Source: Candidatus Norongarragalina meridionalis
GTDB taxonomy: Archaea > Micrarchaeota > Micrarchaeia > Norongarragalinales > Norongarragalinaceae
Length of the DNA stretch: 48,053 nucleotides
Assembly: GCA_902384935.1 (NCBI GenBank)
Contig: CABMDO010000009.1
Location: forward strand, 138,983 to 187,035
Direction: 5' to 3'
Positions 24,313-27,306 of this stretch are shown here, in pieces. The notes under the pieces are model-generated. The model was not told where the DNA came from. It saw nothing but the letters and a program-made list of their open reading frames with translations, and did not search any database. Every line of letters starts with the position of its first letter. Position 1 is the stretch's first letter. The position numbers and the translations under genes were made by a program.

Positions 24313-24362
24313 AAAACGACAAAAAATCCCGTTTTTTTGCCTCTTGGCACGATATATTTAAA

Positions 24363-24410
24363 TATCTATGCCTTGTATTTAGTGAGAACCTAAAACACTA
24401 CCTATTGTGT
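24363..24410 (+). promoter_or_regulatory. Candidate tandem NrdR-box-like operator upstream of nrdD
   Basis: ACACTACCTATTGTGT (24395..24410) within perfect AAAACAC-N8-GTGTTTT; weaker core CTA-N4-TTG 32 bp upstream (24363..24378). Confidence 0.5.
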
Positions 24411-24432
24411 TTTTTGCAAGAGGTGGGAACCC

Positions 24433-26466
24433 ATGCTGAAACGCATCAAGAAACGAGACGGCCGCACCGTCTCTTTCGACCAGGAACGCATCACCGACGC
24501 GATATTCAAGGCAGCACAGGCGGTGGGCGGACACGACCGCGAAATCGCGCTCGAGCTTTCGAACGCGGTTCTAGACGAAATCGAGAAGCGTTTCGGCAAG
24601 GACGGCGTGCCCGGAGTGGAAGAAGTCCAGGACATCGTCGAAAAGGTGCTCATCGAGAAAGGGCATGCGAAAACGGCGAAAGCGTACATCCTTTACCGCA
24701 AGCAGCGCGCCGACATCCGCAACATCGAGGCGCTTATGAATTCCTTCGACCTGGTCGAGGGGTATGTGAAGGAAACCGACTGGCGCGTGCGCGAGAATTC
24801 GAACATGAGCTACTCGCTTCAGGGGCTCAACAACCACGTTTCTTCGGCAGTTATTTCCAATTACTGGGTAAAGAAACTCTACCCGCAGGAAATCGGCGAC
24901 GCGCATTCGGGCGGAGACTTCCACATACACGACCTCGGGGTGCTCGGCGCGTACTGCGTCGGCTGGGATCTCTACGATTTGCTGGCAACGGGCTTCGGAC
25001 ACGTCGCGGGAAAAATAGAGTCCAGCCCGCCGAAGCATTTCCGCACTGCGCTGGGGCAAGTGGTGAATTTCTTCTATACCCTGCAGGGAGAAGCCGCGGG
25101 CGCGCAGGCGTTCAGCAATTTCGACACCCTGCTCGCGCCGTACATCCGCTACGACGGGCTCGGCTACCCCGAAGTGAAGCAGGCGATGCAGGAATTTCTC
25201 TTCAATATGAACGTGCCCACCCGCGTCGGTTTCCAGACGCCTTTCACGAACGTCACGCTTGACCTGACGGTGCCGTCGCATCTCGCCGGAATGCCCGCCA
25301 TGGTGGGCGGAAAGCCGATGGAGGCGACGTACGGCGATTTCGTCGAGGAAATGCAGCTTTTCAACGAGGTGTTCGCGGAGGTGATGACCGAGGGCGACTC
25401 CCGCGGAAGAATTTTCACGTTCCCCATCCCCACGTACAACCTGACGCGCGAATTCCCGTGGGATTCCGCGGTTTCGCAGAAGATATTCGAGATGACGTCG
25501 AAGTACGGCGTTCCGTATTTCGCGAACTTCATAAACAGCGACATGAAGCCCGAGGACGCGCGTTCGATGTGCTGCCGTTTGCGCCTCGACACGAGGCAGC
25601 TGCGCAAGCGCGGCGGCGGCCTGTTCGGCGCGAACCCGCTCACCGGCAGCATAGGCGTCGTCACAATCAACCTCCCGCGCATAGGCTATCTCGCGAAGGA
25701 GGAGGGCGCGTATTTCGAGAAGCTCGGCGCGCTCATGGATTACGCGCAGAGTTCCTTGGAAGTCAAGCGCCGAGTGCTCGAGGGATTCACCGAACGCGGG
25801 CTGTACCCGTACTCGAAATATTACCTGCGCCACATCAAGGAATCGGAAGGCGCGTACTGGAAGAACCATTTCGCGACCATAGGGATAGTGGGCATGAACG
25901 AATCGCTCCTGAACTTCATGGGCGCGTCCATCGTGGAGCCCGAAGGCAAGAAGTTCGCCATCAAGGTTCTGGATTTCATGCGCGCGAAACTCGGCGAGTA
26001 TCAGGACAAGACCGGAAGCATCTACAACCTCGAGGCGACGCCGGCGGAGGGAACGAGCTTCAGGCTCGCGCGCATCGACAAGAAAAAATATCCCGACATA
26101 ATCGTTGCGAACGACAAGGCGGTCCGCGAACGCGGCGCGGCGCCGTTCTATACGAATTCTACGCATCTTCCGGTTGATTTCACGAACGACGTGTTCGAGG
26201 CGCTGGATTTGCAGGACGACCTGCAGACGCGCTATACCGGCGGCACGGTGTTGCACGGGTTCCTCGGCGAGCGGCTCTACGACTGGAAGGTGACGCGCGA
26301 CCTCGTGAGGAAAGTCGCCGAGAATTATTCGCTCCCGTACTTCACGATAACGCCCACCTTCAGCATATGCCCGAAGCACGGCTACGTCGCGGGCGAGCAC
26401 GAGTACTGCCCGCTGTGCGACGAGGAAATAGGCTTCGAGGAAGCGAAGGTAGTTGCCACGAGGTGA
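24433..26466 (+). CDS. nrdD: Anaerobic (class III) ribonucleotide reductase, catalytic subunit lacking the glycyl-radical C-terminus
   Basis: N-terminal ATP cone (KRDGRTVSFDQERITDAIFKAA); NrdD core; ends at zinc segment PTFSICPKHGYVAGEHEYCPLC...VVATR* with no RVxGY motif. Confidence 0.95.
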   Translation: MLKRIKKRDGRTVSFDQERITDAIFKAAQAVGGHDREIALELSNAVLDEIEKRFGKDGVPGVEEVQDIVEKVLIEKGHAKTAKAYILYRKQRADIRNIEALMNSFDLVEGYVKETDWRVRENSNMSYSLQGLNNHVSSAVISNYWVKKLYPQEIGDAHSGGDFHIHDLGVLGAYCVGWDLYDLLATGFGHVAGKIESSPPKHFRTALGQVVNFFYTLQGEAAGAQAFSNFDTLLAPYIRYDGLGYPEVKQAMQEFLFNMNVPTRVGFQTPFTNVTLDLTVPSHLAGMPAMVGGKPMEATYGDFVEEMQLFNEVFAEVMTEGDSRGRIFTFPIPTYNLTREFPWDSAVSQKIFEMTSKYGVPYFANFINSDMKPEDARSMCCRLRLDTRQLRKRGGGLFGANPLTGSIGVVTINLPRIGYLAKEEGAYFEKLGALMDYAQSSLEVKRRVLEGFTERGLYPYSKYYLRHIKESEGAYWKNHFATIGIVGMNESLLNFMGASIVEPEGKKFAIKVLDFMRAKLGEYQDKTGSIYNLEATPAEGTSFRLARIDKKKYPDIIVANDKAVRERGAAPFYTNSTHLPVDFTNDVFEALDLQDDLQTRYTGGTVLHGFLGERLYDWKVTRDLVRKVAENYSLPYFTITPTFSICPKHGYVAGEHEYCPLCDEEIGFEEAKVVATR

Positions 26467-26470
26467 GACT

Positions 26471-26611
26471 ATGGCTGACGAAAATCTTCAGGCGAAAAGG
26501 ACGAAATGCGAGGTATACAGCCGTATCGTAGGATACCTGCGCCCCGTATCGCAGTGGAACGACGGCAAGCGCGAGGAGTTCGCGATGCGCGCCACGTACG
26601 ACTCGAAATAG
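26471..26611 (+). CDS. Stand-alone glycyl-radical domain of NrdD (46 aa)
   Basis: MADENLQAKRTKCEVYSRIVGYLRPVSQWNDGKREEFAMRATYDSK; SD GAGGTGA 4 nt before ATG; +1 frame to nrdD. Confidence 0.85.
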   Translation: MADENLQAKRTKCEVYSRIVGYLRPVSQWNDGKREEFAMRATYDSK

Positions 26612-26619
26612 TGACTCGG

Positions 26620-27306
26620 ATGCGTTTCGGCGGAATCCAGAAGACGAGCCTCATCGACTTCCCAGGCCGCCTCAGCACCGTGCTTTTCACGCAGGGCTGC
26701 AACTTCCGCTGCCCGTTCTGCTACAATAAACAGCTCGTCATTCCCCAGCCCGACGATCCGTGGTTCGACGAGGGAACCGCCTTTGAAACGCTCGAGAACC
26801 GCAAGCACCTGATTGACGCCGTGGTGATAACCGGCGGGGAACCGACGCTGCAGAAGGATTTGCCGTCGTTCGTCGGCGGTTTGAAAGAGCGGGGCTTCGC
26901 AGTGAAGCTCGACACCAACGGTTCCAATCCCGCGATGCTCAAGGAACTGCTGCCCAGCCTCGATTTCGTAGCCATGGACGCGAAATGCGCGCCCGAATCT
27001 TATCCGCTCGTCACGCGTTCGGACGTTTCCGAGAAGGAGGTGCGCGAGAGCGCGTCGCTGCTCATGAAGTCGCGGACTCCCCACGAATTCCGCACAACCG
27101 CCGCGCCCACGATAGTGGACGAGGCGGAAATCGAGAAAATAGGCGCGTGGCTCGAAGGCGCCGAGCGCTACGCAATCCAGAAATTCCTCCCCAAGAACAC
27201 GCTGGACCCGCAGTTCGAGAAGGTGGTTCCGTATCCGCACGTGCGGCTGCTCGCATTGGTGGAAATAGCGAAAAAACACTTCAAGAACGTCGAGTTGAGG
27301 GACTAG
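26620..27306 (+). CDS. nrdG: Anaerobic ribonucleotide reductase activase (radical SAM)
   Basis: TQGCNFRCPFCYNKQL (CxxxCxxC), VITGGEPTLQ. Confidence 0.93.
   Translation: MRFGGIQKTSLIDFPGRLSTVLFTQGCNFRCPFCYNKQLVIPQPDDPWFDEGTAFETLENRKHLIDAVVITGGEPTLQKDLPSFVGGLKERGFAVKLDTNGSNPAMLKELLPSLDFVAMDAKCAPESYPLVTRSDVSEKEVRESASLLMKSRTPHEFRTTAAPTIVDEAEIEKIGAWLEGAERYAIQKFLPKNTLDPQFEKVVPYPHVRLLALVEIAKKHFKNVELRD

Follow-up and report, generated by a model that had tools for sequence, protein, structure and literature searches.

In bacteria, NrdR tetramers loaded with dATP and ATP bind two in-phase boxes and kink the DNA (PMC9110341, PMC12051234), and 15–17 bp are required between the two 16-bp boxes (PMC12051234). 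The CxxC, D15, R17 and RRRR residues touch DNA in the structure of S. coelicolor NrdR, and the G-C pairs equivalent to C4/G13 matter in this organism (PMC9110341). According to PMC9110341 and PMC12176259, the NrdR regulon is seldom encountered in archaea; in haloarchaea nrdR came with class I nrdAB by transfer from bacteria (PMC3019208).

The archaeal nrdD operon described here appears, on well-supported sequence grounds, to be a new member of this known regulon. With the regulons of S. coelicolor, E. coli and Listeria (PMC9110341, PMC12176259, PMC12051234) it shares a regulator of the same TIGR00244 family, a 16-bp palindrome with C4/G13, a gap of about 15–17 bp, and RNR genes, often together with nrdR, as targets. 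In contrast to the bacterial systems, in which the boxes overlap the sigma-factor promoter, box 1 here adjoins a TATA box, and the regulated enzyme is a class III RNR in two pieces, encoded in a micrarchaeotal genome in which no other RNR was found. As in haloarchaea, an archaeal NrdR is located next to RNR genes; however, in Micrarchaeota, a DPANN phylum, it occurs phylum-wide together with RNRs of classes II and III, whereas the haloarchaeal gene accompanies class I (PMC3019208).

The window, i.e. the whole analysed stretch of 48,053 nucleotides, originates from a micrarchaeotal genome of 927 kb in 23 contigs (90% complete). It contains the following features:

24352..24363, + strand, archaeal TATA-box-like element of the nrdD promoter (ATATTTAAATAT region, read directly)
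24363..24378, no strand, NrdR box 1, weak (TATCTATGCCTTGTAT, 9/16, C4 and G13 kept)
24395..24410, no strand, NrdR box 2, strong (ACACTACCTATTGTGT, 14/16 to the consensus)
24433..26466, + strand, nrdD, class III RNR with ATP-cone, catalytic barrel and zinc site (PF13597 592.8, PF03477 83.5 bits)
26471..26611, + strand, glycyl-radical-domain ORF, 46 aa (MADENLQAKRTKCEVYSRIVGYLRP..., Pfam NRDD positions 531-562, E=1.5e-10)
26620..27306, + strand, nrdG, activating radical-SAM enzyme, NrdG2 type (TIGR02495 179.7 bits, cut-off 131.15)

Sites were scored against acaCwAtATaTwGtgt, which, following the initial annotation, we take to be the NrdR-box consensus; it is supported by the unbiased phylum scan described below. 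Box 2 is set in a perfect AAAACAC-N8-GTGTTTT inverted repeat, ends 22 bp before nrdD, and is the top-scoring site of the window, the runner-up reaching 12/16. Box 1 starts exactly 32 bp before box 2. Direct reading and rescoring thereby bear out the initial annotation, which had described the strong palindrome as well as the weaker site upstream. The strict pattern ACACTA-N4-TAGTGT gave no match. At genome-like composition, sites of at least 14/16 are expected by chance about 0.21 times per 927 kb and about 0.0004 times in the intergenic stretch; the genome as a whole contains just two sites that reach 14/16. Of 1000 dinucleotide-shuffled versions of the upstream 250 bp, none matched the single site and none the pair.

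A 14/16 site was also considered upstream of purA (G000:C20:117905-117920; L003:1501-1516), where it adjoins an adenylosuccinate-synthetase-like gene. It lacks the conserved C4, and its best match in the congener G001, a genome only 71% complete, falls within a coding region; no such site was seen at purA there. Due to the missing C4 and the position of the counterpart inside coding sequence, this palindrome is probably a chance occurrence.

The final base of the TATA-like element abuts box 1, and box 2 is situated just beyond the transcription start that would be expected near 24385–24390 from archaeal promoter rules. The TATA-like element is identical in G001, and a T/A stretch touching box 1 is found in at least 12 relatives in the upstream alignment. 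In G001, whose NrdD is 94% identical, 16 of 16 bases of box 2 and 15 of 16 of box 1 are identical to the window, so that 31 of 32 box bases are kept, versus 10 of 16 in the spacer and 8 of 22 in the leader.

The NrdD polypeptide matches NCBIfam PRK08270 with 1036 bits, the match stopping at position 651 of 684, and ends after the zinc site without a C-terminal glycyl-radical domain. By NrdD, the closest named relative is Candidatus Micrarchaeota archaeon CG08_land_8_20_14_0_20_59_11 (94% identity). The motif SRIVGYLRP resides in the separate 46-aa ORF, which begins four bases after nrdD in a different frame, has its own GAGGTGA Shine-Dalgarno sequence and is followed by nrdG; 15 of its 22 differences from the G001 counterpart fall on third codon positions. 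Since a PF02867 search of the 90% complete genome revealed neither a class I nor a class II RNR, nrdD is the only RNR detected. The split recurs in other Micrarchaeota, Aenigmarchaeota, Woesearchaeota, Pacearchaeota, Nanoarchaeota, Diapherotrites and CPR bacteria (e.g. L037, L048, L091, L108, L113, L118 and L158), and in the sampled Bathyarchaeota, Thermoplasmata and Firmicutes the glycyl-radical domain is in the same frame as NrdD. An RNR in two polypeptides, NrdJa/NrdJb, is mentioned in PMC9669993; that enzyme is of class II, whereas the one in the window is of class III, with the glycyl-radical domain released as a small protein (about 46 aa). A split NrdD is not mentioned in the RNR surveys searched, an absence which does not prove novelty. 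In one relative (L059, G020:C61:19143-23180) the nrdD matches fall into three pieces over 4 kb, with an open frame of 1379 aa, a pattern suggestive of inteins.

A single nrdR gene is present in the source genome, located on another contig than nrdD (G000:C16:24162-24596(-)). Its product is a TIGR00244 equivalog (197.6 bits, cut-off 124.65, in a profile search) composed of a zinc ribbon (PF22811) and an ATP-cone (PF03477), the architecture that the initial annotation had named for the gene whose absence would have told against its proposal. Over 145 residues it shares 50% identity with E. coli NrdR, whose structure has been solved, and alignment with the latter revealed both CxxC motifs, D15, R17 and RRRR to be kept. 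As judged from these comparisons, NrdR is full-length, with its reading frame and DNA-contact residues intact. No recognisable box precedes the source genome's own nrdR and the gene is not beside nrdD; thus, no autoregulation is visible. Within the phylum, NrdR exceeds the TIGR00244 cut-off in 135 of 301 Micrarchaeota species genomes. The earlier statement that NrdR is mainly bacterial holds for archaea at large, but in Micrarchaeota the repressor is common. Stand-alone ATP-cone-only ORFs of about 90–160 aa were observed in G083, G117, G118, G125 and others (family f18, genus g44); these ORFs (e.g. G083:C25:643-885) match NrdR positions of about 47–125 and have no zinc ribbon.

The 250 bp preceding nrdD, nrdR-nrdD or the fused genes were scored in 27 regions of relatives. 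A pair spaced 31–33 bp start to start was found at shuffle p<0.05 in 21 of these, and over spacings of 18–60 the best pair falls at 31–33 in 17 regions, at exactly 32 in 11 of them; the combined shuffle p of about 7e-31 is inflated by kinship among the genomes. This is the spacing that bacterial NrdRs need (PMC12051234). Within 250 bp, no boxes were found upstream of the nrdDs of G092 and G020, in which NrdR was not detected, nor recognisable ones at nrdD of the NrdR-positive G011 and G013. The other two non-scoring regions belong to a second nrdD copy of G006 and to G064; in G064 the pair lies further upstream. Ahead of nrdR-nrdD in G039, G080 and G087, bacterial-type boxes are perfect (16/16).

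An unbiased scan of the 301 species genomes, allowing at most one mismatch to the consensus, detected a near-perfect box in 31, of which 26 are NrdR-positive (odds ratio 7.7, p=4e-6, a significance inflated by kinship); a reversed-pattern control in the same genomes had no association with NrdR (p=0.58). The genes behind the scanned boxes are mostly nrdR, nrdD or class II nrdJ of several types. Conservation of the palindrome at orthologous nrdD, on which the initial annotation had made its proposal depend, is found, and extends to nrdR-nrdD and nrdJ phylum-wide. Further boxes at other RNR genes, likewise raised there, occur in relatives, the source genome being without another detected RNR. 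In a wider nrdD sample, the upstream regions of Bathyarchaeota, Thermoplasmata, bacteria and others contained no pair at p<0.05; such pairs were found only in the Micrarchaeota L081 and L126, and in the remaining Micrarchaeota of that sample nrdR lies directly upstream of nrdD and the boxes precede nrdR. In family f12 (L004; G038, G033, G043, G054), NrdR adjoins an ATP-cone RNR; no recognisable box was found within 250 bp upstream of nrdR in its NrdR-positive genomes, and some boxes may sit in the interval that separates nrdR from the RNR gene (L010:1994, 2026).

In 6 of the 301 genomes, all belonging to the order of the window, NrdR is encoded in a long open frame running into NrdD:

L066:2346-4976 (G018), L065 (G021), L063 (G003), L067 (G012), L068 (G006) and L064 (G004), NrdR-NrdD fusion loci

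The fusions of G018 (877-codon frame) and G021 (892) are complete, and that of G003 (840) is complete apart from a separate glycyl ORF; the G012 frame is broken by downstream stops, and those of G006 and G004 reach contig ends. The domain order in G018, G021 and G003 is zinc ribbon, ATP-cone, ATP-cone, NrdD. All six fusions keep CxxC, D15, R17 and RRRR, all six are preceded by paired boxes, and no separate NrdR was found in their genomes (78–91% complete). Between G018 and G021, both parts have a dN of about 0.15 at a dS of 1.5 or saturated; this low dN relative to dS indicates purifying selection on the NrdR as well as the NrdD part. In the tree, the G004 fusion groups with the free-standing NrdR of the window and the other five group together; two origins of the fusion seem likely, though not strongly supported. 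Free NrdD possibly arises from internal starts, as a possible internal Shine-Dalgarno sequence and start is present in G003 and, with poorer spacing, in G018; these elements are not conserved in G021, G012 and G006. In a structure model of the fusion, of moderate quality (mean pLDDT 67, 17 rows), residues 142–153 look like a flexible linker. That in part of the order NrdR became the N-terminus of the enzyme which it controls, giving one protein behind its own paired boxes, is by a slight balance the probable interpretation. No description of an NrdR-NrdD fusion was found in the papers searched.

Could the palindromes have nothing to do with NrdR? A T run (TTTTTT) follows box 2, which is probably located at or after the transcription start, as would suit a chance inverted repeat, a terminator or a hairpin or riboswitch in the 5'-leader of the mRNA. 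However, the palindrome is located downstream of the TATA box and hence does not serve as terminator for the iscU-like gene ahead of it. In the predicted RNA fold, which is of unremarkable stability (z=-1.2), the palindrome does not form a hairpin. An Rfam search gave no match, every base of the palindrome is retained in the congener against a drifting spacer and leader, and the fixed 31–33 bp pairing recurs phylum-wide. Such an origin is considered very improbable. If the boxes are protein-binding sites, a transcription factor other than NrdR that recognises a similar palindrome might use them, given that box 1 is weak and departs from the consensus and that NrdR binding itself is only predicted. 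The perfect boxes ahead of nrdR-nrdD in G039, G080 and G087, the tracking of NrdR presence by the boxes and the targeting of RNR genes of different classes render this very unlikely.

The low score of box 1 (9/16) and the location of nrdR apart from nrdD could also be explained if the boxes were a relic of lost or degenerating NrdR control, non-functional in the source genome. This is very unlikely in view of the intact nrdR frame and DNA-contact residues and of the conservation of both boxes in the congener against a drifting spacer. On the strength of the sites, whose spacing, conservation and specificity are documented above, and of the intact NrdR, the tandem palindromes are very probably the operator of a functional NrdR regulon repressing the nrdD-glycyl-nrdG operon.

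Nucleotide response, tetramer binding and repression can be envisaged for this operator by analogy with bacterial NrdR. NrdR, supplied from its separate locus, would sense the balance of dATP and ATP via its ATP-cone. When dATP is plentiful, a tetramer would form, in which two zinc-ribbon pairs grip the boxes three helical turns apart, thereby clamping the promoter between the TATA box and a point shortly beyond the predicted transcription start, upstream of the start codon. Given that box 1 adjoins the TATA box and box 2 is situated past the predicted start, a kink in the DNA should result on binding, and the assembly of TBP, TFB and RNA polymerase, or the escape of the latter, should be blocked. 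Consequently, the operon, source of the only RNR found, would be shut down at high dATP.

This reading would extend the NrdR regulon to a whole archaeal phylum and provide an example of a bacterial-type repressor fitted to an archaeal TATA promoter. The split NrdD raises the question of how a glycyl radical functions when it is carried by a separable subunit. With the fusions, in turn, nature provides a system for testing whether an enzyme of metabolism can repress its own transcription; if so, the fused RNR would read dATP twice, shutting off its own catalysis and its own gene.
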